IMG/VR virus record: IMGVR_UViG_3300025131_000141
Location: 1-38,675 of that record
Direction: 5' to 3' (one strand)
DNA from: a virus
Length of the DNA: 38,675 nt
Each line of letters begins with the position of its first letter. The first letter of the stretch is position 1. Of the stretch, positions 7,574 through 38,675 are shown one piece after another. The notes under the pieces were generated by a model. That model did no database searches. It saw only the letters and a program-made list of their open reading frames with translations, and was not told the DNA's origin. Made by a program: the position numbers and the translations under genes.

Positions 7574-10323
7574 TGAGAGTCATCGACGGTGGAGTAGATG
7601 CAAAGGTCACTACTAGGATCGGCACTGAGCCGCTGATCATAGTATGGGTTGATTGGCCTAGTGGGGCAGTATACTATAGTGAGAAAGCATATAAAACGGC
7701 TAGCCCCTGGCTAAAGAGCGTTGGTGACATCAGTGTAAGTGGCACATATAATGAGTTGAATAGTGTCAGTACTGTGCAGATCCAGCTCATTGACCCAGAA
7801 GAATCACTTGAGGATCTATACCAGCAAGATGAAATAGAGGGTATTGATTGTACTGTCTATCTCACTTATCCTAACATAACAAACTACAATCAGATGGAGC
7901 CATTGCTTAAGGGCAGAATCAAGGGTGATAGTTCCTTTGATACAGGCACTAGTATTCTCACTTTTAGTGTTGAGAATATCTTCAGTGATCAGAAGATTGG
8001 CTATGCCCCAGAGGATGGCGATATCACGGATATGTCGCCTGATGCAGTCGGCGTAGCTTGGCCTGTCTCCTTTGGCTCGGTGCTTAAGATCCCCGCTATT
8101 AGAGTGAAGAAGGCTGTTGTTGGTCAGGCTGGGGAAACAGTCAGTGCAAATCAAACCAGTTTCATCATTGAGAATGGTTCCTCGTTTCCTCAGAATAGCT
8201 CAATAGATATTAAGATTGGGCAGATCGGTTTCACCGGTACGTTCAACGGCAATGTCTTTACGCCGAGCGCAGATAATATCGTCCTACATAGCAATCTAGG
8301 CCTAGATACTAATCTAGGTACTGATGGACAAATAGCATACCTCGACGAATATAAGCATATCGTCGGGTTATATTGTTATGTTGATCACCCTACCTATGGA
8401 GATATGTTCAATAAATGTGTTGCACAGAGTGGGAAGAAATGCTGGTTCTCTAAGCCGTGGCGGGAGAATGGTACTTCTAATGAGCGGGTGCTAGGGGCAA
8501 CAGATATTTTGAAGGAAGTGAGTGGATGGCCACGTGAGTCATGGAGTGATAGCTATCAGCTTGAGGGTTTCTACGAGGATAGTGTGATGGTACACTATCG
8601 AGCTAATGCTGGTGGTTGGTGGATTCCTGCCGGCGTGGAGGTATCAACAGTTGAAACATTCGATGATCTATATGTCTTTAATTGCTTGACCACAATTGAC
8701 TCAGTAGCAGAAGTATACGGTTGGCGCACATTCAATGACAAGCGACTATTCTCGCCTATTCCATCCAGTTATTATACGAAGAACCTAAGTAATACACTTA
8801 ATAGTGTGGCTTGTGCCACGCTGGAGTTCCACACTAGACTAGAGGATTATCCTGGTGAGAACTGGGATGGTGACATCTTCGTCTCTGTACGCGGCTCACT
8901 AGCTGGTGATACCGGTGATATTGTTAAATGGATAATTGATAACTACACTGGGTTAGCTAGTGATAGTGGTTCCTTCGCGGGCGTCAGCACGTCATTGACT
9001 AATTTCCCCAGCCATTTCCACATTAACAAAGTGTGGAATGCCCTCGATTTAGCTCAAGAGATAGCTTGGCAGGCACGGTGCTCGTTGTACGTAAAGAACG
9101 GCACTGTCTTCATGGATTACCTAAGTGAGATCGTTGCCGGCGTAGGAACGATCACACTAGCTGATGTACTACAAGGTAGTCTCACTTATGGTAGACGGCC
9201 ATCCCGTGATATAGTCACAAGAATCGAAGCTAACTGGCTCAAAGACCACAGTGGTCGTCCCTCCGCCACACAGCAATACGTATACGAGAATAACATTGAT
9301 TCATTCGGTATGCAAGAAGAAACATATGATTTCTTCATATACAATATCTTCGAGCTAGTGGAGGCATCAGTCGATTTCTGGGGGTACAGGAAGAGTCAGG
9401 CATGGATGCACGTTACTTTTGTTACGCCACTATTCAATCTAAAGTATGAATATCTTGATGTATTGACTATCAATATGCTGGATATCTCCTCTGTACGTGG
9501 CGTACTGATGGAGCAAACTATATCGGATTTCCTTAGTGAGACACCCATAACGAATAGGGTAGAGATAGCAATGGCATCGGATTCTGCTGTCTCTGAGGAT
9601 ACACAATATTGGGGCGCACCATATGTTGCCCTACCTGATGATCCCACTGACAACATGGCGGAGATTGACTATGACCCGATAAAGAAGCCAGGAACTATAA
9701 CGTGGCGAGGTAGGACAGATGACGATGAAGATGATATCTCCTGCTATTTTAGAGTGAGGACAAAGACGGAGATAGAGCGTAGTACGAATTTCAACGTTAG
9801 GATTGATGCATATGATGAGCGACGTAAAGTTCGTCTCAGTATTAATGTAGATGTGCGACTGATTCTACAAAGTAGTGACGGTAGTGATGCTCTTAGTGAC
9901 ACAACTAAGACTTTGAAGAACGGTCGATGGGAGGGTAATCTTCAGGTTACAGGTGGGACAGGTGATGATGTTGCTCAGATTGAAGTTATCCAGGAGGGTG
10001 GTGATCGCGGTGCAACTAAATGTACTTCTGGCTCATCTGAGTTCTTTGATATTTCGGGGACAGCAATCAGTCCGTCACCTGGAGACATAGGGCCGGCTTA
10101 CTTAATCCCCGTTAAGGTCACCAGTAAACACGATAACACTACTTATGTTTGTAGTATATATGAGGATGGAACAGATGCTGCGGCCACACAGACGGGTGTT
10201 GGGGTGAAGGTCAATCAAATAGCTGCCAATCAAACTATCCCTAATGACACTATTCTTTCTGCTCACAGGCAAAAGTGGGCTGGAGTGTGGTGGCTTACAA
10301 TAGATGTGACGAGGTTATACTAA
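7573..10323 (+). CDS. Tail hub / tail-tip attachment protein
   Basis: This 916-residue protein is the first large gene after the tape measure and the two small tip proteins, the place of the central hub (Tal or lambda gpJ-like). The N-terminal part shows a 'VQIQLIDPEESLEDLYQQDE' and 'LLKGRIKGDSSFDTGTSILT' pattern, typical of proteins that define a local axis or hub. A middle region of about residues 270-700 contains GGWWIPAGVEV and WARCSLYVKNG-like strands. The acidic C-terminal 200 residues look like beta-sandwich domains exposed to the host. No peptidase motif was seen. An alternative is a fibre-bearing minor tail protein. Confidence 0.6.
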   Translation: MRVIDGGVDAKVTTRIGTEPLIIVWVDWPSGAVYYSEKAYKTASPWLKSVGDISVSGTYNELNSVSTVQIQLIDPEESLEDLYQQDEIEGIDCTVYLTYPNITNYNQMEPLLKGRIKGDSSFDTGTSILTFSVENIFSDQKIGYAPEDGDITDMSPDAVGVAWPVSFGSVLKIPAIRVKKAVVGQAGETVSANQTSFIIENGSSFPQNSSIDIKIGQIGFTGTFNGNVFTPSADNIVLHSNLGLDTNLGTDGQIAYLDEYKHIVGLYCYVDHPTYGDMFNKCVAQSGKKCWFSKPWRENGTSNERVLGATDILKEVSGWPRESWSDSYQLEGFYEDSVMVHYRANAGGWWIPAGVEVSTVETFDDLYVFNCLTTIDSVAEVYGWRTFNDKRLFSPIPSSYYTKNLSNTLNSVACATLEFHTRLEDYPGENWDGDIFVSVRGSLAGDTGDIVKWIIDNYTGLASDSGSFAGVSTSLTNFPSHFHINKVWNALDLAQEIAWQARCSLYVKNGTVFMDYLSEIVAGVGTITLADVLQGSLTYGRRPSRDIVTRIEANWLKDHSGRPSATQQYVYENNIDSFGMQEETYDFFIYNIFELVEASVDFWGYRKSQAWMHVTFVTPLFNLKYEYLDVLTINMLDISSVRGVLMEQTISDFLSETPITNRVEIAMASDSAVSEDTQYWGAPYVALPDDPTDNMAEIDYDPIKKPGTITWRGRTDDDEDDISCYFRVRTKTEIERSTNFNVRIDAYDERRKVRLSINVDVRLILQSSDGSDALSDTTKTLKNGRWEGNLQVTGGTGDDVAQIEVIQEGGDRGATKCTSGSSEFFDISGTAISPSPGDIGPAYLIPVKVTSKHDNTTYVCSIYEDGTDAAATQTGVGVKVNQIAANQTIPNDTILSAHRQKWAGVWWLTIDVTRLY

Positions 10324-11304
10324 ATGAGCTATGAAGAGCCAGCTAGTTGGACAGACGTAGATGCTGGGGGCAATGCCATATCCTGGGCATCTATGACAAA
10401 TAAACTCATATATCCGGCTGTAGAAATGATACGTCGAGCTATCGATGAGAGGACACTTGGCGGGAGTACAAGTTTGAGTGAACTGGAACCAGGAGGTTCA
10501 CTTATCCCCACTGGATGGATGTATGCTGTTGAACAAGAAATAGATGCGTTGGTACCTCTGTTTGTTGATCATACACAAGTGGGTGGGTCAGATGCTTTTG
10601 AGGATGTCTCCATTATTCCAATGTGGACCATAGCTAATTTGATGACAGCAATTAGTGAGACTCGTATTACACATACTGATACTGGTCATCAAATACCTTT
10701 AGCGGCTTGGGCTGTACAACAATACAAAATGTTGAATATGCTCCGATGGCGGCGCTATTGGGATACAATCATTGATCTAAAAGAGAACACCGAAGAAATT
10801 AAGGTAGTTGAAAATGTCACTACTTGGGGCACTGTTGAGTCCTCTTTCCCAGGCCAATCGTGGAATGCAGTGGAGACTGAAGATGGTGCATTATTCGCGA
10901 TGGCTTGGGCTCAAGCTGCTGACGATTTCTCAGCCCAGCGAGAACGTGTAACTGCACAGTATAAACAAACATCTCATGGGTTTGATGTGGCATTAGATAT
11001 ATATGTCAGACCTGAAAATCACGCGTTAATTGATAATTGGGAATGTAATGATTTCGGCTCACCGTCTGAAGCTAATTTAGGTCTAGATTTCCAGGTAACA
11101 ACACCTGCAGAATATGATAGTAATCCCACAGATATTGGGGTAGTGGCCGACTATGATACAGTTCCTGTTGCGGAACCAGCAGAAGGAGAGAATGCAGGTT
11201 ATCGTTTAGGGGAGATGGATGCTGGCTTGAATGAGAATGCTGCTGGATTAATTGTAGTGGCCAAGTTTGACGTGGCAGGTGGCTTTGTGTGGAAGGATTG
11301 GTAA
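10324..11304 (+). CDS. Virion-associated protein, possible receptor-binding or fibre component
   Basis: This 326-residue protein starts at ATG 10324, directly after the hub stop. The N-terminal 170 residues are helical and hydrophobic (WASMTNKLIYPAVEMIRRAIDER, WTIANLMTAISETRI). The C-terminal half is acidic and beta-rich and ends FDVAGGFVWKDW. No repeat, collagen or chaperone domain typical of large fibres was seen. It is the last gene of the tail operon before the sugar-enzyme cassette, so a distal tail role is inferred. Confidence 0.4.
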   Translation: MSYEEPASWTDVDAGGNAISWASMTNKLIYPAVEMIRRAIDERTLGGSTSLSELEPGGSLIPTGWMYAVEQEIDALVPLFVDHTQVGGSDAFEDVSIIPMWTIANLMTAISETRITHTDTGHQIPLAAWAVQQYKMLNMLRWRRYWDTIIDLKENTEEIKVVENVTTWGTVESSFPGQSWNAVETEDGALFAMAWAQAADDFSAQRERVTAQYKQTSHGFDVALDIYVRPENHALIDNWECNDFGSPSEANLGLDFQVTTPAEYDSNPTDIGVVADYDTVPVAEPAEGENAGYRLGEMDAGLNENAAGLIVVAKFDVAGGFVWKDW

Positions 11305-11305
11305 G

Positions 11306-12343
11306 ATGTTATTCGGCTTCGGACACTGCGAGGAACCGTTCAGATCCAATGTAGTGGATATACTAGAGGCAAACGGACTATCTGTCCAAAGCAAGAAGAG
11401 TGTCAATCCTGTATTCTGGGATGGCACCTTTGCTTGGAATATGGGCTATCGGTTGGATGAGTTCAAGCGAGAGCGTAATATTCTGGCCATGGAGAATACT
11501 GTTCTCGGTGATAGTAAGAACTACTATTACTTAGACATTGATGGTTACGGCTATACTGGCTCAATACGTAAGTATCGGTGCGATGAACTGGCCACTGTGA
11601 AGGGCACATACGCTGAGGACGGCCCGATCCTAATCTGCCTGCAAGGTCCGACCTACCAGACTACGCGGGGTATGTACCACGATACCTCTAATTACACTAA
11701 CCACTTCCTTGAGCAATGCTATAAGTACCTACCTGAGTGGAAGTATGAAGTGCGTATGCATCCGAGTCATAGGAATTATCCTATCAGAAATATGCGTAGT
11801 GATTGGACGATTGATCCGTGGGATATGAAGCTACATGATAAGTTGCCACACTGCCGTGGCATTGTCACAATTAATAGCAATTGTGCTATCCAAGCTATGT
11901 ACGCAGGTGTGCCAGTAGCAACACTTGGACGCGGCCCCTGGAGCGAAGCTAATGCGGCTTTTGATTGCTACGTAGCTTCCAATTTGAGGATGTTCCTACA
12001 TTATAAAGTGAATACACTCTCGGTTAGGAGTTTCCTTGCTAAGTTCCGCCGCTTCTGTTTATGTGCTGACAGCACTAAAGAGGATATCCTACACTGCCCA
12101 CCTTTCAAGAAATTCATTGATCGGTTGCTCTTCAAAGAGATCAAGACAGCTAATGCAATGAATGATTACAAGAAGGTGAAAGCCAAGATCCTTGTGAGTG
12201 AGGACAGCCTGTTACAGGCATTCCTAGAAGAGCATGAGCTTTTAGTTGAAAATAGCGACACTATGTCAGCCTGCCAAAAGAATGCGCGTCGGAACCATTT
12301 CGTAGGAAAGTATAATGCTAACTATCGTCATGTCCACATATAA
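11306..12343 (+). CDS. GT-B type glycosyltransferase-like protein
   Basis: This 345-residue protein is started at ATG 11306, which has GGAAGGA nine bases upstream; an upstream in-frame TTG would overlap the previous gene and is not preferred. The C-terminal half contains HCRGIVTINSNC and AIQAMYAGVPVATLGRGPWSE near residues 185-215. This is the acceptor-to-donor helix pattern of capsule-type or CDP-glycerol/Kdo-like transferases: a Ser/Asn-rich loop, then 'ea...G.Pv...G'. An 'MHPSHR' segment near 150 is also typical of that group. It opens a run of six sugar-related genes. The substrate cannot be told. Confidence 0.6.
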   Translation: MLFGFGHCEEPFRSNVVDILEANGLSVQSKKSVNPVFWDGTFAWNMGYRLDEFKRERNILAMENTVLGDSKNYYYLDIDGYGYTGSIRKYRCDELATVKGTYAEDGPILICLQGPTYQTTRGMYHDTSNYTNHFLEQCYKYLPEWKYEVRMHPSHRNYPIRNMRSDWTIDPWDMKLHDKLPHCRGIVTINSNCAIQAMYAGVPVATLGRGPWSEANAAFDCYVASNLRMFLHYKVNTLSVRSFLAKFRRFCLCADSTKEDILHCPPFKKFIDRLLFKEIKTANAMNDYKKVKAKILVSEDSLLQAFLEEHELLVENSDTMSACQKNARRNHFVGKYNANYRHVHI

Positions 12344-12989
12344 CAGAGACCACTTGCTCAGGCTTACCCTTCCTCGCTTACGCAAATATACAGATGCCAA
12401 GGTTATACTAATAGATGATGGTGTGGTTGGAACAGGGCCGGAGCTAGCAGCACAGTATGATTGTAAGTATGTATTGACTGAGAACACTGCGTGGCGCTCA
12501 CCAGTAACCAGCCACAATCTAGGTGCTGGTATGGTGACCACACCATATATGGCGCTAATGTGTGCTGAGATCTACCTAGTTAACGATTGCATCACACCGA
12601 TGCTATTCAATGTTAAGCACTTTTCTTGCATGGCGATACCGACAGGCCGCCACGGTGGTGGAGCTAATCTGAATGCTCTTCAGGATGGTCGACCTGTGCC
12701 TTATAAAGGTAGTGTCCTCAATACATACCTACCTTTCTTCATGATGTTTCGCACTGCTGATTACGTTGGTTATAGTGAGGAATTCGCTCACGGCCATGGC
12801 TGGGATGATGATGATTTCGTTCTGCGTATGAACATACCATATGGATTAACATATGGTCGCTGCATACACTTGAAGCATGCTAAGGGTCATTCAGTCCGCA
12901 AAAATCTACGTTCCAATACAAGAGTCTTTAAGCGACAAAAATACAACGGTCTGTATTCAAAGAAGAGTATTGAAAATGGAGCTTTCTGA
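12315..12989 (+). CDS. Family 2-like (GT-A) glycosyltransferase
   Basis: This 224-residue protein begins MLTIVMSTYNRDHLLRLTLP, the classic GT-A start, followed by VILIDDGV (about residues 30-37) where the nucleotide-sugar-binding Asp pair lies. GHGWDDDDFVLRM near 165-177 fits the 'W.DeDf..R' catalytic-site pattern of family 2 enzymes. ATG 12315 has GGAAAG upstream and overlaps the previous gene by 29 bases. It probably transfers a sugar from a nucleotide donor; the acceptor is unknown. Confidence 0.8.
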   Translation: MLTIVMSTYNRDHLLRLTLPRLRKYTDAKVILIDDGVVGTGPELAAQYDCKYVLTENTAWRSPVTSHNLGAGMVTTPYMALMCAEIYLVNDCITPMLFNVKHFSCMAIPTGRHGGGANLNALQDGRPVPYKGSVLNTYLPFFMMFRTADYVGYSEEFAHGHGWDDDDFVLRMNIPYGLTYGRCIHLKHAKGHSVRKNLRSNTRVFKRQKYNGLYSKKSIENGAF

Positions 12990-13506
12990 AAGCAGGATAA
13001 GATCAGTTGTGGAGGAGGAGGTGTGGGTAGCCGGCAAGGGTCCATCTCTGGACACCTACAATTGGGGCAATAGTAACGGCTGCAATTTCGGCCTAAATGA
13101 AGCTGCCTTTCTCGTGCCACACTGTGTTGGTGCCTTCGCTGTGGACACGAAGATACTGGAGAAATTCACGCGTGAGTTAGCACTCCCTACTATTGTCTTC
13201 ATTGAGCACCGCAAAAGATTCACCTATGAAAAGTATTTCAAATTCAACCGACCGAAACACTTCGCCTTTAGTGGTGGCGTTATACTAGTAGCAACACAGG
13301 TATTGAGCTATTTCGGTGTTAAAGTGATCCATTTCGTAGGCTGTGATAGTATCACACAGCGACAGGAAGATCGTGGTTATGCTAAGGGTATAAGGAAGAT
13401 AAAAGGGCAAGGTACGAATAATGATTTTTTTAAGGTTATCAATACTAGGTTAGTCGAGAACTTAGATAAGATGGGTTTGGAGGTAGTATGGGAACATACC
13501 GAGTAG
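12976..13506 (+). CDS. MptE-like / DUF115-like protein, copy 1
   Basis: This 176-residue protein is started at ATG 12976. Earlier in-frame starts would lie far inside the upstream gene. VWVAGKGPSLDTYNW near the N-terminus is the 'GkGPSLd' nucleotide-binding loop of the MptE-like/DUF115 family and of related sialyltransferase-like folds. LNEAAFLVP, GAFAVD and IHFVGCDS fit the later conserved positions. Known relatives are linked to surface glycosylation or pterin diphosphate transfer. It is followed by a diverged tandem copy. No substrate can be assigned. Confidence 0.6.
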   Translation: MELSESRIRSVVEEEVWVAGKGPSLDTYNWGNSNGCNFGLNEAAFLVPHCVGAFAVDTKILEKFTRELALPTIVFIEHRKRFTYEKYFKFNRPKHFAFSGGVILVATQVLSYFGVKVIHFVGCDSITQRQEDRGYAKGIRKIKGQGTNNDFFKVINTRLVENLDKMGLEVVWEHTE

Positions 13507-14091
13507 GGAAGGACGTATGGTCAGCCGGCAAGGGGGCATCCCTTGATACATATAACTGGTCACTTGCTAATGATTGGCGCTTTGCTTTGAATGAAGCAGC
13601 TATGATTGTGCCTCGTTGTATAGGGGCCTTCGCTGTTGATATCGAATCAATGTGGAATATAGTAAAATATAAAGCCAATCAGTGTACACTGTTTATTGAT
13701 CCCGAGTATGTATGTACGGTCAAGAGTGTTGAGAAACTGAAGAATACCAAGTTAGAGGTGAAGCAATACCATGAGTTACGCCAAGGCATTCACTACAAAA
13801 CGATCTTTGGTGTAGTTAAGCCAGCGATACAATCACTATACTCCTTCGGTGCAAGAAGAATACATTTCATTGGTTTCGACAGTATGGAGGGCTACCATAA
13901 AGGAACGATGGATGGATGGATGTAACGTAGCGAATAGTCTAAGACTATTTAATTGCAAAGTACCAAGAAATAATAATTACTACCATTTCAGTATTCATGT
14001 ACTTGCTATGCTTAGGACACTTGAAATGGAGGGTATCTGGCATCTACCGAGTGGCGACCTAACTTTGGAGTTTCTCCGTGAGCCTGAATAA
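13488..14091 (+). pseudogene. MptE-like / DUF115-like protein, copy 2, frameshifted at a (GATG)4 repeat
   Basis: The ATG at 13488 has an ideal GGAGG. The frame runs to TAA 13923-13925 (145 residues) and matches copy 1 through VWSAGKGASLDTYNW, LNEAAMIVP, GAFAVD and RIHFIGFDS, though GPSL has become GASL. Past the stop, the +1 frame continues the homology: RNNNYYHFSIHVLAMLRTLE aligns with TNNDFFKVINTRLVENLDKM of copy 1 and ends at TAA 14089-14091. The frame changes exactly at four GATG units (13907-13922). Loss of one unit would give a full-length protein of about 200 residues. It may be a phase-variable OFF state, a dying copy or a sequencing error. Confidence 0.7.
13907..13922 (+). repeat. 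(GATG)4 tetranucleotide repeat
   Basis: Four perfect GATG units sit inside the second MptE-like gene, directly before its in-frame TAA. The downstream homology is in the +1 frame, so three units (or six) would keep the reading frame open and four close it. Repeats of this kind are prone to slipped-strand mispairing. Confidence 0.9.
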
Positions 14092-14995
14092 ATTCACATC
14101 AACAGCATTGTTGCCGACTAAGGTGCTACGTAAGCACCCAATCGACAAAAACAATCATATTATCCCATACCATATACAATTGTATCCAACGCATAAGTGC
14201 AATCGGAATTGCCACTATTGTGTGCTCAGTAAACTGGACAGAACAGTCGAGATGCACTTTGATGAGATATGTGCATTACTGCGTCACTTCTGGTTCTTAG
14301 GCACACGTGCCGTAACGTTGACCGGTGGTGGTGAACCAACACTACACCCTAAATTCTGGGAGATAGTTGCCTTTTGTTACAATGAAGGCATTGAAACAGG
14401 GCTCGTAACCAATGGAGATTTCCTCCATAATGCGCCAAATATAGCGCATACTCTCACTTGGATTCGAATGTCAGTTAATGACATAACTAAGGTGCCTAAA
14501 GCTATCGAGAGCCTAATTAATATCGACGTTGGACTGTCTTTGGTTATTACTGATCGAACACCACTTTGCCAAGTGGAAGCATTGTGTGAACTAGCTAATG
14601 CTTACAAGCACGTAACGCATGTACGCTTTGCGCAGGATGTGGTGCATTTGCCAAAAACGATCTTTGAAGAGGCGAAGAAAGTGGCCGCAGGATTGACGGA
14701 TAAGGCTGTCTTTCAAAACAGAGACAGTCCAACTGTAGGTACTAGGCAGTGTCTAGTTGGTCAGCTTAGACCGCTGATTACAGCCAATGGTGATGTCTAC
14801 CCGTGCTGTGGTATTCAGTATTCTACCCGGTGGCAAGGTAAGTACCCGGCCAAGTATAAGTATTGCCACTGGACTGATTATGAACTAGGAATGAAGGCAT
14901 TCGACGGAAGTATTTGCGAACGCTGTGATTTCATGAACTATAATACGTTACTTCAAGCCATGACAGAACCGGTTGAGCATGAGGAGTTCATTTGA
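14078..14995 (+). CDS. Radical SAM enzyme
   Basis: This 305-residue protein is started at GTG 14078, with GGAG eight bases upstream; no upstream ATG is available and the N-terminal part fits. THKCNRNCHYCVL holds the CX3CX2C [4Fe-4S] motif (Cys41, 45, 48). GGGEPTLHP near 90 is the SAM-binding 'GGE' motif. C-terminal cysteines (QCLVGQLRPL, YPCCG, ICERCDF) look like a SPASM/twitch-type second cluster site, which favours a modifying enzyme over a lyase. It lies between the MptE-like copies and a glycosyltransferase, so a role in building or modifying a sugar or peptide substrate of that cassette is inferred. Confidence 0.85.
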   Translation: MSLNKFTSTALLPTKVLRKHPIDKNNHIIPYHIQLYPTHKCNRNCHYCVLSKLDRTVEMHFDEICALLRHFWFLGTRAVTLTGGGEPTLHPKFWEIVAFCYNEGIETGLVTNGDFLHNAPNIAHTLTWIRMSVNDITKVPKAIESLINIDVGLSLVITDRTPLCQVEALCELANAYKHVTHVRFAQDVVHLPKTIFEEAKKVAAGLTDKAVFQNRDSPTVGTRQCLVGQLRPLITANGDVYPCCGIQYSTRWQGKYPAKYKYCHWTDYELGMKAFDGSICERCDFMNYNTLLQAMTEPVEHEEFI

Positions 14996-15771
14996 TGAAT
15001 TTTGTAACATTCTACACGTTAGGTAATCGTTACGAGCAAGTGGTACAGAAACTACTTGAGTCAGCTGAGAAACACGATATCGAAGTATACGCAGAGGGTG
15101 TTGAGGATAGGGGTACGTGGGTTGCTAACTGTGGCATTAAGCCTGAGTTCATCCGTAAGTGTTATGATATGTTCGATGAACCATTTACATTTGTGGATGC
15201 TGATGCTCAGTTCCACGGCCAACCTGTGCTCCTCGATGAGTTAGATTGTGACATAGCTGTGCATTATATGCGAAAGGAACTGCTCTCAGGCACTGTCTAT
15301 GTGGGCAATACCGAAGGCGCGCTGGAGGTGTTGGACGCGTGGGTAGCAGAGCAAAAGAAAGCCCATAGAGACTGGGATCAAAGAACACTTCAGCGCGTAC
15401 TCGAACGTCTTGATGTTAATGTAACTGAGTTACCGCAACAGTACACAGCAATCTTTGATAGAGACATTGAAAATAGGATCATTGTGCACTATCAAGAGAG
15501 TAGGAAGGGTAGGCGGGGGACTGAAGGAATGATGGCGAAGCCGGTTGACGAACCGTCAACGCCAATTAATATCCTGCATACTCGGGCCGAGATTGAGTCC
15601 ATGATACAGACGAACTGTAATCGGAACCCAGGTGTGAGAGTGCATTCGAATGGCACTCTCAGCATCTGTCGTCCCTCAGAGAAGGTAACTACTTATCTTA
15701 AGAAGCATTACCGACAAGTGCATGAGGGCAACGAAAAGATCTGGGCTCCGATTGACAGTACCTCTACGTGA
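14995..15771 (+). CDS. Nucleotide-sugar transferase with DxD motif
   Basis: This 258-residue protein starts at ATG 14995 (TGATG overlap with the radical SAM stop). FTFVDADAQFHGQP near 64-76 is the metal-binding DxD loop, followed by DIAVHYMRKELLSGTVYVGN and RDWDQRTLQRVLE. These three elements match the nucleotide-diphospho-sugar transferase fold (GT8/GT77-like): the donor site, the 'l.sGt.y...t' strand and the 'wDQ..l' motif. The last 80 residues are a separate, Cys-containing, positively charged tail with no recognised family. The stop overlaps a convergent gene by 8 bases. Confidence 0.75.
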   Translation: MNFVTFYTLGNRYEQVVQKLLESAEKHDIEVYAEGVEDRGTWVANCGIKPEFIRKCYDMFDEPFTFVDADAQFHGQPVLLDELDCDIAVHYMRKELLSGTVYVGNTEGALEVLDAWVAEQKKAHRDWDQRTLQRVLERLDVNVTELPQQYTAIFDRDIENRIIVHYQESRKGRRGTEGMMAKPVDEPSTPINILHTRAEIESMIQTNCNRNPGVRVHSNGTLSICRPSEKVTTYLKKHYRQVHEGNEKIWAPIDSTST

Positions 15772-16099
15772 TGTAGATCGGTTGATTAGTGTCTTCAGCA
15801 ACATACAGTAATATGCAGAAATCACTAAGCCATTCTCTTTCAGTGCTAGGTACCCAGTTAATTAGGATATGCTCTAGTGTTTCTAAAAGAATGGCGGCCT
15901 CTTGATCAGTTATCATCGTCGTGAATGTGAAGAATTTAATGGCCGGATGTCCATCCAATCGTGCGATGGCATCCGGCCATGTCAGTTTAGTCCCCTTGTG
16001 TACACCATAACTAGCTAGCACTAACCCTCTAATGCGTGACAATTTGAGACTACTCAGCCACACATTAAAATAGTCTTTCTCACCGATTTTGAAGTTCAT
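15764..16099 (-). CDS. Hypothetical protein at the end of the minus-strand operon
   Basis: This 111-residue protein starts at ATG 16099, coupled to the upstream zinc-ribbon gene by ATGA. It has an alpha/beta character, with FFTFTTMITDQEAAILLETLEHIL, a Trp/Ser-rich SSTEREWLSD-like segment and a hydrophobic end. No family was recognised. It is the last gene of the minus-strand unit and overlaps the convergent glycosyltransferase end by 8 bases. Confidence 0.5.
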   Translation of the reverse strand: MNFKIGEKDYFNVWLSSLKLSRIRGLVLASYGVHKGTKLTWPDAIARLDGHPAIKFFTFTTMITDQEAAILLETLEHILINWVPSTEREWLSDFCILLYVAEDTNQPIYIT

Positions 16100-17022
16100 T
16101 CGTCTTCATACTCCTCTAGTCCCGCTACATTCTTGAGTAGTTCCATTGCCTTAGCCCGTATTACAGCGGGTGACGGCGGTTGTCCGCGCTGGACTATTCC
16201 CTCAATACGGGTGCAAGTAGCGTCAAGTAGTTCCTTAATTAGTGGCATGATTGAGGGTTGGCGCATACTGTCAGGCAATGGTTTCCAGAAGGCCCTCTCC
16301 CAATCTATACTACCATCACAAAATGACTTTCCATCCCAATACGCATACCTCCCATTTACGGCTTTTGCCAACTGAGATATCTCATAGAAGCACTTCACAT
16401 TAGGCTCCATGAAATCAGTGTGGAAACGTTCTATTGTATCATTAGGACCGGCTGAAGTGCTGTACCTATTACACTTCTCACACAGGTGGATTAGTTTATC
16501 TTTGTCAATTACGATTTTATAATCACAGTGAGTGCATTTCATAGTTTCATTTACCTCCTCAAGTGTCCAAGCATGATGGCATTTGCTACAACAGTAAATG
16601 GCTGGATTGTCTCTTGTTGGTAGAATAGTATCGAAACTAGTCGAACCACATGCATTGCATTTATTGCTTATAGATTCATCCTTCTTATTTTGACAGTCTA
16701 TCCGACCCTTAGAGCATGCTTTACAGAGATATTCTCTATTTGGTCCATTGGGCATACCGGTAGTCGCTGTTTCTCCACACTCGTAAGTGACCATTTTCTC
16801 AGTATCCTTTTTTAACCACACATTCTCGCAATGTTTGCAGTAACAAATTGTGGGCTCGAAGTCAACACGAGCGATAACGTCAACGTCAGGCGCACCACAT
16901 TTTGGGCATTTCATCGTCTCTTCCTTTTCATTTAGCCCTATAAACATACAAGTATGACAATAATCACCACCTACAGTTTGACTGCAATTAACTGAACCGC
17001 AAGACTGACACACAGTTATCAT
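16096..17022 (-). CDS. Multi-zinc-ribbon protein with internal duplication
   Basis: In this 308-residue protein the first about 185 residues carry roughly ten CxxC-type pairs: CQSC, CHTC, CPKC, CKHC, CKAC, CNAC, CSKC, CTHC and CEKC. Two units are clear internal duplicates: residues 38-69 (CPKCG...D.I...P.ICYCKHC..VW) and 122-152 (CNACG...D.I...P.IYCCSKC..AW). The C-terminal 110 residues have no cysteine array and include YAYWDGKSFCDGSIDWERAFW and a helical end. The upstream neighbour overlaps by 4 bases. A role in nucleic-acid or protein binding through metal ribbons is inferred; no enzyme motif was seen. Confidence 0.6.
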   Translation of the reverse strand: MITVCQSCGSVNCSQTVGGDYCHTCMFIGLNEKEETMKCPKCGAPDVDVIARVDFEPTICYCKHCENVWLKKDTEKMVTYECGETATTGMPNGPNREYLCKACSKGRIDCQNKKDESISNKCNACGSTSFDTILPTRDNPAIYCCSKCHHAWTLEEVNETMKCTHCDYKIVIDKDKLIHLCEKCNRYSTSAGPNDTIERFHTDFMEPNVKCFYEISQLAKAVNGRYAYWDGKSFCDGSIDWERAFWKPLPDSMRQPSIMPLIKELLDATCTRIEGIVQRGQPPSPAVIRAKAMELLKNVAGLEEYEDE

Positions 17023-18876: not shown

Positions 18877-21537
18877 TCACACCTTAGATTTAAGAAACCC
18901 ATTAACTGGAATTAGTGACTTCTCGCCTATCTTTGACACGTTACAACTATGTGCTGTTCCTTTCGGTATGATGTTCCCAATATAATGACTACTGTCCTTA
19001 CCGCGGCCCTTAGGATACTTCTCTGGATTTAGCTCCTTACCGAACTTACGTTTCGTCCAGTTCAGTTCCGCAGTGGCGTCACTCGTCGCCAGGAAGAGGT
19101 CAAACAGATCACCATACTTAGTCGCCATGCCAGGAGCATATGAACATTGTTCCTCCAGGAATATCTCCACTTCGTTCCGATTCATGCCCTGTAATGCCTC
19201 CTTATGGGCACTTGTAATAGTAGGTAGATTAAGTCTACCAGTCGCTTCAGGCAGCTCAAGCCGCTGTATAGCGGCTAAGAAATCAGATGCTTCTTTCTCA
19301 AGTAACGATAGTAATGTTCGTTTGCTTATCTCCTCTGTTAGGTCATCCACAAAGATTATGACAATACGTGTATCACCTCTGAAGACTGGGCAGTAACTGT
19401 GATGATTTGCACACTGTACCCAATGCGTTGTATTCTTAGTATGGTAGGGGGCATGATACATCGGTCGAATCAATAGCTCCCTTCCTGTTACCCAATCTTT
19501 TATTCTATTGTGAGCGATCTTATTCGTTCCCAGATTAACCTCCTCTACTACACAAATGATTGCACCATCAAGTTCACCATTGAAATTGGAACTACTAGTT
19601 AAGGCTTGATCAGCGCGCTGATACCCTTTCGTCACTAAAAGTGATAGTGCCTCGTGAAAGATACTCTTTCCACTATTCTCTGGGCCATAAAAGAATAGAT
19701 AAGGTAGTGGCTCTGTGGGTTGCTGAAAGATACTCGCTATCCAACATTTAAGATAATCGCTCCCGGTTAGGATACCTGCATTTTGACACCACGCATTCTC
19801 TTTAACTGGACCGTCTAAATTTTCCCCACAGTGATCCAATATACGGAGCCAATTTGGGTAATTTAGTTCCTCTTCCTGTGTGGGGTGAAAACGAAATTGA
19901 GCAGCGTTAAAGTTCCATTCACGGTCACCAGGATACTCACTTTGAAAGGGCTTATTAACAAGTGACCATGGACGCTTAATCGCGTTACCGATGATTGACG
20001 TTACTTCATGGCTGTTTAATCCCTCCGCAGCTAGAGCTGCACGAATATGCACTAAGGGCTCACCTTTCCATGTTTCATCTGTGTGGATCATCCAGCCGGC
20101 GTCACTACCTGTTTGTTCAACGATGTGGCGTATGAAATCATCATAGTTCCCCATCTCTAATTCAGTTGAGGGTGATATCTGTGGTTTGGCGACTTTTGTC
20201 CATACTTTAGGCTTACGCAACCATGTCCCCATATCCTCTATTCTGTCATTCTTATCCCCTTCCACTTCAATGACTAATCGGCCATCCTTGGCTTGTTTGA
20301 GCTTAGTTTCACGTCCCTGCTGCCGCATTCCGACCTCAAAGAACACACCCATCATCTTCGCCGCAGCTGCCGCTGAATTAGTGTCCAAGAAGACGAAGCC
20401 ACCAGACGGATCTTCGATACCTTCGAATGCTTTGCATGTGGTTATGAAATCAGGCTCCCGATTATAAAAACATCTAGTCCATCCTTGACCGTCTTGATCC
20501 CACGATATGTCCTCCTGTACCCCCATACCGTATCTACGCACAACCCAAGCTCCCTTCCTAATGGGGAAGAGAAAGCAGTTGTGGGCGCTACTGTGGGAGC
20601 TATTGGTTCTGAATATACCCTTGAAAGAGAGTGCTGTGAAGGCATCGGCGAGATGTGACGTGTGCGTGACCAGCATATGGTGATCGCTATCCCACCACCA
20701 TACACATTCATTAGTATCTAACCATGCTATCAGTGCCTTGTGAGGTTCCTCAAGAGCCGCCTTAGTAAGTTGACCGTATAAGTCAGCAAAAGCAGTCTTA
20801 TTCTTAATTACACTAGGGGCATTCTTGCGTCGGTTACCCTTCACTACTTCGAGATGGTCACGCCAATTGATTGGAGGATCAATCTGCTCAGTTGATTCCT
20901 TCATCAATGTGAGTCCGTCGGTGCCAGCCATCTTTCTATGCCACACCCACAGAATACCGCCGCAAGCATCTACCTTCGACTGGAAGTCAATGGATGTAAG
21001 CGCTGCCAATTGACCAAGGACAGCCCTAGCCAGAGCAGCATGTTCAGTGTGGTTAACTGTAACATTGGGGTTGAGGTAGACGTAGATATGCAGGCCATTG
21101 CCAGAAGTAGATTTGCGAAGCTCAACCCAGGGTATATCAGATACGGCATCTATTATCTCCTTAATCTCTATATCGGTTAGCCCTTGCTTGTGACTGATTA
21201 TATCATCAAAATCAAAGGCTACCCACTCACTGCATTCCAATACCCAATTCCATCCTGTCAGACCTATGCCCTCAGCATGTACACTTAGGTCAAAGCGTAT
21301 TTCTGTATCAGTATATTCGGGTTCTGACATGGCCTTATACGGTATGCGTATCGGTTTCCATGTCGTTAAGTGGTCGGTCCATCCCTGCCACTTGTGTCCT
21401 AAATACTCGCCTTCAATACGCTCACCCTCACCTCGGGCTACATTTACCTGTACCTCCATTTCATGGCTATACTTCGATGCTAATTCAGGCAGTGTTTCAT
21501 TCTGTAAGAATAGCTGGATTGCCTTGGTCTTATTCAC
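18877..21537 (-). CDS. AEP-type primase fused to SF3/D5-like helicase
   Basis: This 886-residue protein has an N-terminal archaeo-eukaryotic-type primase: WVAFDFDDI (Asp109 and Asp111) and STSGNGLHIYVYL (145-156), the 'sG.G.H' motif of primase-polymerases. A long linker leads to a C-terminal ATPase with Walker A FYGPENSGKS (about 613-620), Walker B AIICVVEEVNL (about 660) and the sensor stretch CANHHSYCPVFRGDTRIVII, as in D5/SF3-type replication helicases. It therefore probably primes and unwinds phage DNA at the origin. It is the largest minus-strand gene and lies about 1 kb from the divergent control region. Confidence 0.85.
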   Translation of the reverse strand: MNKTKAIQLFLQNETLPELASKYSHEMEVQVNVARGEGERIEGEYLGHKWQGWTDHLTTWKPIRIPYKAMSEPEYTDTEIRFDLSVHAEGIGLTGWNWVLECSEWVAFDFDDIISHKQGLTDIEIKEIIDAVSDIPWVELRKSTSGNGLHIYVYLNPNVTVNHTEHAALARAVLGQLAALTSIDFQSKVDACGGILWVWHRKMAGTDGLTLMKESTEQIDPPINWRDHLEVVKGNRRKNAPSVIKNKTAFADLYGQLTKAALEEPHKALIAWLDTNECVWWWDSDHHMLVTHTSHLADAFTALSFKGIFRTNSSHSSAHNCFLFPIRKGAWVVRRYGMGVQEDISWDQDGQGWTRCFYNREPDFITTCKAFEGIEDPSGGFVFLDTNSAAAAAKMMGVFFEVGMRQQGRETKLKQAKDGRLVIEVEGDKNDRIEDMGTWLRKPKVWTKVAKPQISPSTELEMGNYDDFIRHIVEQTGSDAGWMIHTDETWKGEPLVHIRAALAAEGLNSHEVTSIIGNAIKRPWSLVNKPFQSEYPGDREWNFNAAQFRFHPTQEEELNYPNWLRILDHCGENLDGPVKENAWCQNAGILTGSDYLKCWIASIFQQPTEPLPYLFFYGPENSGKSIFHEALSLLVTKGYQRADQALTSSSNFNGELDGAIICVVEEVNLGTNKIAHNRIKDWVTGRELLIRPMYHAPYHTKNTTHWVQCANHHSYCPVFRGDTRIVIIFVDDLTEEISKRTLLSLLEKEASDFLAAIQRLELPEATGRLNLPTITSAHKEALQGMNRNEVEIFLEEQCSYAPGMATKYGDLFDLFLATSDATAELNWTKRKFGKELNPEKYPKGRGKDSSHYIGNIIPKGTAHSCNVSKIGEKSLIPVNGFLKSKV

Positions 21538-24834: not shown

Positions 24835-25248
24835 ATGGTCCCTATCGCTATCACTATACCCGATCCAGCCGCTATACAAAAAGCTACACAAGAGTTCAAG
24901 GTCGGCATTGATTGTAAAAGCAGAAACCCGAGTGATCTATTGTCAAGCACTGATGACAGTAGATTCGTGCACTTAGTGGTTGTCGAGACGGTAGATCGAA
25001 AAATAGTGATGGAGCTAACTAAGTATGTCGATGTGAAAGTGGCCCATGTGGATGAGTTTGGTTATTATTCATTCATAGGGGGGACGGTTGATAATTGGGA
25101 GCTACTAATAAAGGAATGGTGTACGGATGAATTTGACACTGATGCTGAGCGCCGCTTCGGTACCGATGTATACAGAATACTGAAGTCCCTATCGCTCACT
25201 ACTATTAACGTCAGTACACACGCGGATGGATCATTTATATGCAAGTGA
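24835..25248 (+). CDS. Hypothetical protein
   Basis: This 137-residue protein is started at ATG 24835 (AGGA seven bases upstream); a TTG two codons earlier is possible. It contains beta-alpha elements: FVHLVVVETVDRKIVME, YYSFIGGTVDNWELLIKEW and FGTDVYRILKSLSLTTINV. No family was recognised. It overlaps the helicase gene by 10 bases. Confidence 0.45.
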   Translation: MVPIAITIPDPAAIQKATQEFKVGIDCKSRNPSDLLSSTDDSRFVHLVVVETVDRKIVMELTKYVDVKVAHVDEFGYYSFIGGTVDNWELLIKEWCTDEFDTDAERRFGTDVYRILKSLSLTTINVSTHADGSFICK

Positions 25249-27125
25249 CATTGGCTACAACACACAAGCGTCTCGCAACTATTACTCGAATAAACAACAG
25301 ATTATCATTCGATTTCCGCTATGATCTTGGAATCAAAGATCACATTAAGGCCCAATCAGGGGCTCGCTTTGATTGGACGAGTAACATGTGGAGTTTCGAT
25401 ATTACTCCACATAATATGTTCCAGCTTGCCTACCTTCTACGTTTGAATCCACCAGACCCAAACTCGGAACTACCTCTCGGTTTCAATCCATACGCGCTAT
25501 GGGAGTCCCCTACCTTGGGACTCACTTACGAGCGGCCCCTCTACTCCCATCAAAAAGCCATGGTCGAGCACGGCATAGCGCACCACTATGTCGTTTTCGC
25601 GTGTGAAATGGGTACTGGTAAGACTCTTTCTGCCATCGAAATGATGGAGCGCATTGAGGGTGAATGCTGGTATGTCGGTCCCAAAGCAGGCGTGTATGCC
25701 GTCACACGTGAGTTAAATAAATGGAAGAGTAAGGTGCGCCCACGTATGTTAACATATGAGGGTATGAAGAAGGTACTCAGTCAGTGGGATGGTAGTAAGG
25801 CACCACGAATGCTCATCTTCGATGAGTTTCACAAGATCAAGAATGAGACTGCCCAACGCAGTAAGGCAGCACGTCATCTTGCCGATGCCATCAGACGAGA
25901 ATATGGTCAGGATGGTTTCATAATCGGAATGAGTGGTACGCCGGCACCGAAGTCACCTTTGGATTGGTGGTGGCCTTGTGAAGTGATTGCGCCGGGGTTT
26001 CTACGGGAAGGAACGAAGGGGAAATTCAAGCGTAGGCTGGCGTTTACTGAGAAGAGAGAAGGATTGTATGGTGCCTATGAACATCTGCTATCTTGGCGTG
26101 ACGACGAGGAAAAGTGTGAGGTATGTGGTCAATATTGGGAGGAGGCAATAGAGCATCACGTACCTGAGGTACCTGATTATCACATATTTAAGCATAGTAC
26201 CAATGAGGTAGCTGGGCTGTTTGAGCGGATGAAGGGATTGGTGCTAGTGCAGTTCAAGAAGGACTGTATACAGTTGCCTGAGATGACCTATGAGGTGATT
26301 AAGGCGAAGCCAACAGTCGATATGCTGCGGGCAATGCAGACTATAATCAATACGTCTACACGTGCAATTACAGCACTTAGCCGGTGTAGGCAACTGAGTG
26401 ATGGTTTCCAGTACGTAAAGGAAAAGGAAGGTGATGAGATATGTGCGGCATGTGATGGTAAAGGCAAAGGTATTCATCCTATTGCAACGGATACAGAAGG
26501 CCCCAATACAGACACTGTGTATGAGTTTGAGGAGGGACCATGTGCTGAGTGTAACGGAACAGGAAAACAGCCTATAATCGTCAGGAATGTAAAGGATGTG
26601 ACGTCGCCTAAAGATGAATACTTAATGGGGGAGGTAGAGAAACATGAAGAGATAGGCAGGCTAGTGATCTGGGCCGGCTTCCAAGCCAGTATCGAAAGGA
26701 TTACACAACTATTAGTAGCAAAGGATTGGGCGGTACTTAGGCTCGATGGCCGAGGTTACATTCCATACAATACAGATGCATCAGTCGAGACACTGATGAA
26801 TGAGATGGACTGGTCAACTAACCCAGGAACAATTGAGAAACTATGTATCGTTGCCAATCCACAGGCAGGAGGAACAGCCAATACTTTCACAGCTAGTCCC
26901 ACCGCTATCTACTTCAGCAATACATTCGATGCTGATGCACGGCAACAGAGCGAACCGCGTATCCATAGGATGGGCATGGACCCAAATAGAGGCGCGAGAA
27001 TAGTCGATATATTCTGCCTCCCAACGGATGTTTTAATCTATGATAACATCCACTTGAAGAAGAAACTGCAAGGTATGTCAATGGGGCAACTAAAGGAGCA
27101 ATTGTGGACCAGCAAACAGAAATAG
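25239..27125 (+). CDS. SF2 (SNF2-like) helicase with a DnaJ-type zinc insertion
   Basis: This 628-residue protein shows Walker A FACEMGTGKTLSAIE (about 120-135), DEFH box LIFDEFHKIKNE (about 193), motif III IIGMSGTPAPKS (about 229) and motif VI-like DARQQSEPRIHRMGMDP (about 567-583), so it is an ATP-driven SF2 translocase of the SNF2/SMARCAL1-like kind. The N-terminal 90 residues (FRYDLGIKDHIKAQSGARFDW) resemble the HARP-type domain that often precedes such motors. Between the two motor domains are CEVCGQYWEEAIEHH (about 293) and a DnaJ-like pair, CAACDGKGKG (about 403) and CAECNGTGK (about 435). It probably remodels DNA at replication or recombination intermediates. Confidence 0.85.
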   Translation: MQVTLATTHKRLATITRINNRLSFDFRYDLGIKDHIKAQSGARFDWTSNMWSFDITPHNMFQLAYLLRLNPPDPNSELPLGFNPYALWESPTLGLTYERPLYSHQKAMVEHGIAHHYVVFACEMGTGKTLSAIEMMERIEGECWYVGPKAGVYAVTRELNKWKSKVRPRMLTYEGMKKVLSQWDGSKAPRMLIFDEFHKIKNETAQRSKAARHLADAIRREYGQDGFIIGMSGTPAPKSPLDWWWPCEVIAPGFLREGTKGKFKRRLAFTEKREGLYGAYEHLLSWRDDEEKCEVCGQYWEEAIEHHVPEVPDYHIFKHSTNEVAGLFERMKGLVLVQFKKDCIQLPEMTYEVIKAKPTVDMLRAMQTIINTSTRAITALSRCRQLSDGFQYVKEKEGDEICAACDGKGKGIHPIATDTEGPNTDTVYEFEEGPCAECNGTGKQPIIVRNVKDVTSPKDEYLMGEVEKHEEIGRLVIWAGFQASIERITQLLVAKDWAVLRLDGRGYIPYNTDASVETLMNEMDWSTNPGTIEKLCIVANPQAGGTANTFTASPTAIYFSNTFDADARQQSEPRIHRMGMDPNRGARIVDIFCLPTDVLIYDNIHLKKKLQGMSMGQLKEQLWTSKQK

Positions 27126-28099
27126 TAGAGCAACCTGAGGTCGAGGTCGAGGTCGAGCAAAGAGTAGAGCGTCTTCTTCTCAGAGACATCTGGGTCAATG
27201 AGGAGTTCAATTGTCGGGGGAGAATCATACCGTCTGAGTGCGTAGATTTGGCTAAGGCGATTGAAGCTCAGGGATTGATTCAACCGGTAACGGTCTGTCC
27301 AGTTCCAAGCGATATGGCGAATCCACTTAATAAGAAGTACCTTCTTGTTTGTGGTTATCGACGCGTCCTGGCTATGCACAGGATACTGAAATGGGAACGT
27401 GTGCCCAGTGTAATCTCGACTCGCGTTGACTCCCTCAGTATGGCTATGGCATACAATCTGAGTGAGAACCTGAAGCGAGAGGACTTGGACATTCTTCAGG
27501 AGGCTCTCGCAATTGCGAAGCTCAAAAAGCTCGCTGTGCGTCGGGATGCTATCATGGAACAGATGGGGGTGAGTAATGGTTGGCTCCAGATACGTGAGCA
27601 GCTATTGCAGCTACCTGTTGAAATCTTTCCCTCCATTAAAGCGGAATTCATCAATCAAACAGATATCCGCGAGCTATACACGATGCTCAGGCTAGAGGGA
27701 CGGGATGCCTGCTTGGAGATGGCTGGTGAAATACGGGAGGCTAAGCAAAAGGGCAATACTCGGATCAATAAAAGCAGTATCGAGATGGGGAAAAAGAAGA
27801 AAACGAAGAGGGCGAGAAAGAAGCAAGAGATGGTAGAGATGATACACCACTTGCTGGCTACCATCGGTGAAGAGACAGCTACGTTTGCCTTGGCGTGGGG
27901 CTCCGGTGAGCTGTCAATGGGTGATTTCGATACCAAGATGGTGCAGCATATACAGGCTCAAAACGCTATGTTGGAGAATATGAGAAAATACATCATAGCC
28001 ACAATGGAGGGTATTGCTGTTCCTGATGGTGTAACGGATGCGCTGATACAATGGATTGACGATCAAGAGCGTATCTATATTCAGTATGGGGATCTGTAA
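27104..28099 (+). CDS. ParB-like protein 2
   Basis: This 331-residue protein is started at GTG 27104, with AAGGAG just upstream, overlapping the helicase end by 22 bases. LRDIWVNEEFNCRGRIIP, LAKAIEAQGLIQPVTVCPVP, LLVCGYRRVLAMHRILKWERVPSVI and NLSENLKREDLDILQEA make up a ParB/Spo0J N-terminal domain with an intact 'GyRR..A' box. An HTH-like region (DAIMEQMGVSNGWLQIREQL) and a basic KKKKTKRARKKQ linker precede a helical end. It is the second ParB-like protein within 4 kb and may act on the same or similar sites as the first. Confidence 0.8.
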   Translation: MDQQTEIVEQPEVEVEVEQRVERLLLRDIWVNEEFNCRGRIIPSECVDLAKAIEAQGLIQPVTVCPVPSDMANPLNKKYLLVCGYRRVLAMHRILKWERVPSVISTRVDSLSMAMAYNLSENLKREDLDILQEALAIAKLKKLAVRRDAIMEQMGVSNGWLQIREQLLQLPVEIFPSIKAEFINQTDIRELYTMLRLEGRDACLEMAGEIREAKQKGNTRINKSSIEMGKKKKTKRARKKQEMVEMIHHLLATIGEETATFALAWGSGELSMGDFDTKMVQHIQAQNAMLENMRKYIIATMEGIAVPDGVTDALIQWIDDQERIYIQYGDL

Positions 28100-35078: not shown

Positions 35079-35268
35079 GAACAGAAGGGACTTCGTAGCT
35101 AAATATATCTGTGAACACTGCACGGCGACCGTTACGACACATGGCTATGATGACGCTCATTTCCATAATGAGGTGATTCCTGCTATGGTTTGTAAGACAT
35201 GCGGTAAGACAGCCGGCATTGATTACTTGTCGCTGGCGACTAAGTATGATGCAGAGGAGGTAGTATGA
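35053..35268 (+). CDS. Small zinc-ribbon protein
   Basis: This 71-residue protein has DFVAKYICEHCTATVTTHGYDD with a second pair, VCKTCGK, that together can bind zinc. 'CehC....GYDD..Fh..ViPam.CktCgk' is a pattern often found in phage zinc-ribbon proteins. It overlaps the next gene by ATGA. Function unknown. Confidence 0.6.
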   Translation: MKIQKIISRNRRDFVAKYICEHCTATVTTHGYDDAHFHNEVIPAMVCKTCGKTAGIDYLSLATKYDAEEVV

Positions 35269-37605: not shown

Positions 37606-37830
37606 ATGAGTGAGCAGAGTGTAATTATGCGTGGCATCAGGGATGGTCTAGAGGACGTGTGGATACGCTGTCACGCAGAGAATATCGTGGCGCTGCGCGA
37701 GATGCGCGAGAAGCTGAAGCCAATTAAGCGGGATTATATGCTCAACAGTACCCACCACAAAGAGCTATTTGTGTTAGCTTGCCAAATGGAACTGATTATC
37801 GAATCAATGGAGAGGGAGAGTATGGGATGA
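37606..37830 (+). CDS. Small helical hypothetical protein
   Basis: This 74-residue protein starts at ATG 37606 with GAGGTGG upstream. It is mainly helical, with IVALREMREKLKPIKRDYML and ELFVLACQMELIIESMERES. It overlaps the next ATG (ATGA). No family was recognised. Confidence 0.5.
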   Translation: MSEQSVIMRGIRDGLEDVWIRCHAENIVALREMREKLKPIKRDYMLNSTHHKELFVLACQMELIIESMERESMG

Positions 37831-38421: not shown

Positions 38422-38675
38422 TGGACTACGGTTTTATCAATGTATTTCGTAATCAGACTGAACAAAATATTTGCAAGCAACTGGCGGAAGAGCACCCGAT
38501 GCTAAGCTACGGCGCTGCTGCATCCATAGTATTCACTAGGTGGCTAAGCGCCGTCCATGACGGTAAGTGGCTATTGAGTAAAGACGAGAGTGACTCAATC
38601 ATTGATGTGCGTGAGGAGGATGAGGCACGAGCACTAGTGGCGGAGCTACGGTCACTACCATCAGATACCATCTTC
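38421..38675 (+). CDS. Small protein with a WLxAVHDxKWL motif (partial)
   Basis: The start is ATG 38421 (TAATG overlap), and the frame is open to the window end for 85 residues. It contains RWLSAVHDGKWLL, related to the WLNAVHDTKWL of the gene before it. The codons differ, so the copies are not recent. The rest is helical and acidic. Confidence 0.5.
   Translation, partial: MDYGFINVFRNQTEQNICKQLAEEHPMLSYGAAASIVFTRWLSAVHDGKWLLSKDESDSIIDVREEDEARALVAELRSLPSDTIF

Follow-up and report, generated by a model that had tools for sequence, protein, structure and literature searches.

A tract of four GATG units in a viral genome coincides with a net +1 frameshift in the second of two tandem genes (copy 1 and copy 2) of a predicted GT42-sialyltransferase/MptE-fold family. 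The DNA analysed (the window) comprises positions 1 to 38,675 of IMG/VR record IMGVR_UViG_3300025131_000141. Both the tandem MptE-like pair and the net +1 frameshift within the GATG tract had been proposed from the sequence alone and were borne out. The state of copy 2 is attributed, with moderate confidence, to a fairly recent slippage frameshift that truncated (or split) one of two duplicate genes in a phage glycosyltransferase cassette.

The tract (13907-13922) consists of four perfect units (100% matches), and copy 2, read from the ATG at 13488 in frame 0, ends directly behind it at TAA 13923-13925 after 145 amino acids (aa), which confirms the sequence-only reading on this point. The unit length is not a multiple of three, and the tract lies inside the copy 2 reading frame, approximately 70% into the gene. 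In the +1 frame, no stop occurs between 13849 and a TAA at 14089-14091, and the frame change was placed by homology at about 13893-13922, a span that is mostly repeat. Because GATG contains ATG and the unit is four bases long, the tract places an ATG in all three frames (13908, 13912, 13916, and 13920). A strong Shine-Dalgarno (SD)-like site precedes the start of copy 2. (GATG)4 is the only tetranucleotide tract of at least four copies in the whole window and in 123 kb of DNA from this phage and related phages; 0.33% of same-length order-2 Markov sequences hold such a tract.

Homologues were searched for with the motif W-x-A-G-K-G-[PA]-S written as a degenerate DNA pattern, which yielded four new viral contigs, three of them with second members, resulting in seven uninterrupted homologous genes. 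A family profile was built from eight intact members (copy 1 and the seven uninterrupted homologues), with copy 2 left out. The frame-0 part of copy 2 matched this profile at positions 12-128 and the +1 tail at positions 130-172, consecutively and without a break; the possibility that the 3' part would align to nothing as protein, which had been named as grounds for abandoning the idea, was checked in this way. Adding the tail raised the profile score from 92.6 to 102.9 bits, which was equaled by 0 of 5000 shuffled tails (maximum, 97.7). The 58-aa tail by itself scored 9.1 bits, a value reached by none of 5000 shuffles (maximum, 3.3), and, with the in-frame stretches of copies 1 and 2 set aside, matched better than any other of the 4056 six-frame segments of the window. 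The codon bias of the phage was seen in the tail in the +1 frame only (0.075 per codon; off-frame 95th percentiles, 0.038 and 0.060), and the tail is stop-free over 55 codons, which 3.6% and 0.9% of off-frame segments match. The homology had originally been claimed with respect to copy 1; against copy 1 alone, the similarity of the tail was not significant (shuffle p = 0.11), and with copy 2 alone and a distant PHROG_4603-type profile, the tail added nothing, but the continuation holds against the eight-member profile. The frameshift in copy 2 is judged to be real because the profile match runs on into the +1 frame and the tail is coding-like in that frame.

Modeling and profile comparison place copies 1 and 2 in a predicted GT42-sialyltransferase/MptE-fold family. 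They are distantly related to phage PHROG_4603 "alpha-2,3-sialyltransferase"-type proteins (hhalign probability, 94%), which match the GT42 enzyme Cst-II in the PDB (E 1e-4). Shared with GT42 Cst-I/Cst-II and PHROG_4603 are the fold over residues 1-193 (Z about 10), a GKGPSL-like first motif, a G-x-D motif, and the profile-profile link. Unlike the PHROG_4603 family, copies 1 and 2 have no HWHxxH-type histidine motif after the G-x-D motif in the alignment, and hmmscan against PHROG_4603 gave no match for copy 1 or for the copy 2 read-through. The structure model (P0002; mean pLDDT, 61) is of the read-through product of copy 2 with one four-base word read. Its residues 1-193 align with Cst-I, Cst-II, a Pasteurella sialyltransferase, the M. 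jannaschii MptE enzyme, and a Maf glycosyltransferase at Z scores of about 9-10 (MptE/Maf matches: 8sd5_A, Z 10.0; 5mu5, Z 9.3). The model thus has the same fold as PF01973 (MptE-like; 6-hydroxymethylpterin diphosphokinase, also in Maf glycosyltransferases), whereas the Pfam scores of the two copies, 16.7 and 14.9 bits, are under the gathering threshold of 34.6, with a weak match confined to the last part of the profile. In P0002, the repeat falls in a low-confidence loop, which varies in length across the family alignment, and the last helix (161-175) and strand (179-184) belong to the tail. Without this helix and strand of the Rossmann-like core, the 145-aa product is probably inactive.

No DNA or protein match to copies 1 and 2 was found among INPHARED phages. 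In cellular genomes, the strict WxAGKG[PA]S pattern gave no match, and a looser motif gave 11 matches, none like a full-length member, with profile scores of at most 11.8 bits, the level of the selecting motif. Three related phages (L039, L040, and L042) carry a second, more distant family member of approximately 240-290 aa with an extra N-terminal part. Judging from these sequences, duplication is common in the family.

As an alternative, the repeat had been suspected of being a sequencing or assembly error, with the real gene intact; the sequence is a metagenome consensus, and short tandem repeats are a known site of indel errors. A second record, IMGVR_UViG_3300025141_000151 (G001; 49,947 bases), is colinear with the window from the first base onward, with 99.94% identity across 38.5 kb, and is distinguishable from it by about 20 substitutions, one hexanucleotide unit at 27137-27157, and an indel of approximately 60 bases near 38,460. 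It carries exactly four GATG units, as the window does. Random error at the tract is unlikely because this second, distinguishable contig shows the same four units, and reads readily bridge a tract of 16 bases; an intact gene behind an erroneous consensus is considered very improbable. A comparison of unit counts in relatives had also been suggested. It could be made with this one near-identical genome, and no differing count was seen among the two. Searches with either flank returned no other tract alleles, records very near the genome of the window possibly having been left out. The comparison with G001 gives no sign of hypervariability, and two genomes are weak evidence on variation.

Other differences between the two records were noted. 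At 27137-27157, the window has a GAGGTC tract of 3.5 units, of which G001 has one unit fewer; it is situated where a ParB-like gene (27104-28099) overlaps a helicase-like gene (25239-27125), and both frames are therefore preserved by the change. Six of the approximately 20 substitutions are inside 27 bases (35176-35202), which looks like a small recombination patch, and about 60 bases at 38457-38517 are missing from G001. A 39-base stretch at 37631-37669 has a 97% identical counterpart within the additional 11 kb of G001 (L011, 3488-3526), making it a dispersed repeat. The two records start at an identical position, perhaps a true genome end or a break common to both assemblies.

A 4-base change exactly at this site is most simply accounted for by slippage in the short tandem repeat. 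A GATG unit would have been duplicated by slippage in a short tract within a length-tolerant loop, putting the 3' quarter of copy 2 out of frame fairly recently. The main product would now be the 145-aa fragment, and the intact copy 1 perhaps covers for copy 2. A recent event is suggested because the tail keeps its coding bias, has no stop in 55 codons, and ends in a stop still overlapping the start of the next gene. Copy 2 would have been full-length and translationally coupled to the radical SAM gene until recently, and the stop/GTG overlap is as expected for such an arrangement. All seven relatives found are uninterrupted. Slippage could also restore the frame, since unit counts in multiples of three keep it, although this would be rare with four units, and the present state may resemble an ordinary reversible frameshift more than an evolved switch. 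Several points weigh against a recent slippage event as the explanation. A switch would likewise have a rare tract coinciding with the frameshift; there was no relative at an intermediate distance from which the event could be dated or an earlier unit count read; the loop length of the family fits the tract-less state as well as three units; the window and G001 are too close to show decay, with zero differences at 8350-16452; and the inactivity of the 145-aa fragment is predicted from the loss of core elements.

Phase variation, which the sequence-only reading had raised, was unsupported. The GATG tract would then be a contingency switch in which slipped-strand mispairing during phage replication toggles the glycosyltransferase-like gene, the consensus being the OFF state. 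A tract of non-triplet units that coincides precisely with the frameshift in a sugar-related gene is rare by chance; the +1 part is still coding-like; the one-unit difference in the hexanucleotide tract between the window and G001 indicates that slippage does occur in this phage; and repeat-driven phase variation is already known in phages (PMC11868660). With four units, however, the tract is below the hypermutable range, as surveys use a cut-off of at least five units for phase-variable tetranucleotide tracts (PMC5953494, PMC6321876). In H. influenzae mod, 5-11 tetranucleotide units switched rarely, if at all, and 17-38 units switch at a rate rising with length (De Bolle et al. via PMC2992063). 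The tract is the same in the window and G001, even though the two differ at about 20 other positions by substitution, the flank searches gave no other allele, the tract is in a variable loop, and the uninterrupted relatives carry no such tract. A contingency switch is thus considered unlikely. A related form, in which mixed GATG counts would turn a sialyltransferase-like gene on and off or alternate a fused with a split, restart-translated form, is similarly doubtful.

A functional split gene would have both halves made, as 145-aa and roughly 59-aa pieces that may assemble. Translation would stop at TAA 13923 and resume in the +1 frame at ATG 13912, or a peptidyl-tRNA would hop four bases along the repeat. 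The tract offers an ATG in every frame, and the one at 13912, in the frame of the tail, lies 11 bases ahead of the stop and is preceded, at a distance of seven bases, by AAGGA. Its anti-SD energy is -5.6 kcal/mol, compared to a median of -6.25 for the starts of the phage, but approximately 15% of internal ATGs have an equally good site. The tail without decay and the usual overlapping stop-start junctions of the cassette are consistent with two products, whereas the uninterrupted relatives are single polypeptides, the RNA structure is nothing special (folding z -0.35), and the Rossmann-like core may not tolerate a break ahead of its final helix and strand. A split gene is accordingly given a low probability. 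Programmed frameshifting was also considered. The classical -1 type was rejected, as -1 leads into the +2 frame, which has stops, and no known signal of the prfB type (+1) was seen when judged by eye. For frameshifting driven by RNA structure, the same unremarkable folding applies; the stop is followed by a 7-bp hairpin, which is not among the stems of at least 8.

The window is from a tailed phage, as it has a tape measure gene, and copy 2 is in a cassette with a family 2 glycosyltransferase (GT2) gene, a radical SAM gene, and a nucleotide-diphospho-sugar transferase-like gene (Table 1). A sugar-related gene in a phage, as had been suggested, agrees with these and the other glycosyltransferase-like neighbors. 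The cassette is located between tail genes and opposite-strand replication genes, and overlapping stop-start junctions are the rule in it. In IMGVR_UViG_3300033145_000191, a relative of copies 1 and 2 that is uninterrupted has genes of these kinds beside it, and the group is flanked by tail genes and an opposite-strand replication gene 52% identical to that of the window. In IMGVR_UViG_3300028388_003352 (L040, 5339-8061, minus strand), this replication gene is split into two overlapping frames by a frameshift or an error; in the window, it is one 886-aa frame. In IMGVR_UViG_3300037424_000911 (L014, 4658-7427), a PHROG_4603-type sialyltransferase-like gene has a methyltransferase-like gene and a similar radical SAM gene as neighbors, and by sequence, the cassette appears to recur there with an alternative enzyme.

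Table 1. Repeat tract, copies 1 and 2, and neighboring genes in the window
Feature	Position	Strand	Basis or remark
Possible capsule-synthesis or glycosyltransferase-like gene	11267..12343	+	Weak match, E 0.009, below cut-off
Family 2 glycosyltransferase (PF00535)	12315..12989	+	E 4.4e-5, just above cut-off
Copy 1, intact tandem paralogue, 176 aa	12976..13506	+	Overlaps copy 2 start
Copy 2 frame-0 part, predicted GT42/MptE-fold protein, 145 aa	13488..13925	+	Profile match; ends at TAA 13923-13925
(GATG)4 tandem repeat	13907..13922	+	Sequence; ATG in three frames
Copy 2 3' part, +1 frame, predicted last helix and strand of domain	13923..14091	+	Profile, coding bias, model; stop 14089-14091
Radical SAM gene	14078..14995	+	GTG start overlaps +1-frame stop of copy 2
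Nucleotide-diphospho-sugar transferase-like gene (PF03407)	14992..15771	+	Domain match
Replication gene (DUF5906), far side of cassette	18877..21537	-	Approximately 52% identical in related phages

Should the tract prove variable within the population, repeat phase variation in phages, described for homopolymers of receptor-binding genes, would extend to a tetranucleotide and to a gene that modifies glycans; if it is invariant, copy 2 would be a clear case of a short repeat disrupting one of two duplicate phage genes. In either case, a small GT42/MptE-fold protein family is defined, found here only in viral contigs, together with a glycosyltransferase and radical SAM cassette that is conserved among a group of tailed phages without cultured members.

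The tract can be compared with the tetranucleotide loci of H. influenzae, lic1/licA (CAAT) and mod (AGTC) (PMC2992063), where unit changes also shift the frame and licA is likewise a surface-sugar-modification gene. Those loci average 15-27 units and vary between strains, in contrast to four units that are the same in two genomes here, and the licA tract is at the 5' end, unlike the position of the GATG tract far into copy 2. In phages, simple repeats are known to drive phase variation (PMC11868660), and polyG phase variation of receptor-binding protein genes is described for Campylobacter phages (Sorensen et al. 2021, as cited in PMC10877375 and PMC11868660). As cited there, the Campylobacter repeat is a homopolymer in another kind of gene, and its variation was shown by experiment, whereas the tract reported here is a tetranucleotide with no variation seen in two genomes; in both, a repeat-driven frameshift falls in a phage gene tied to host interaction.
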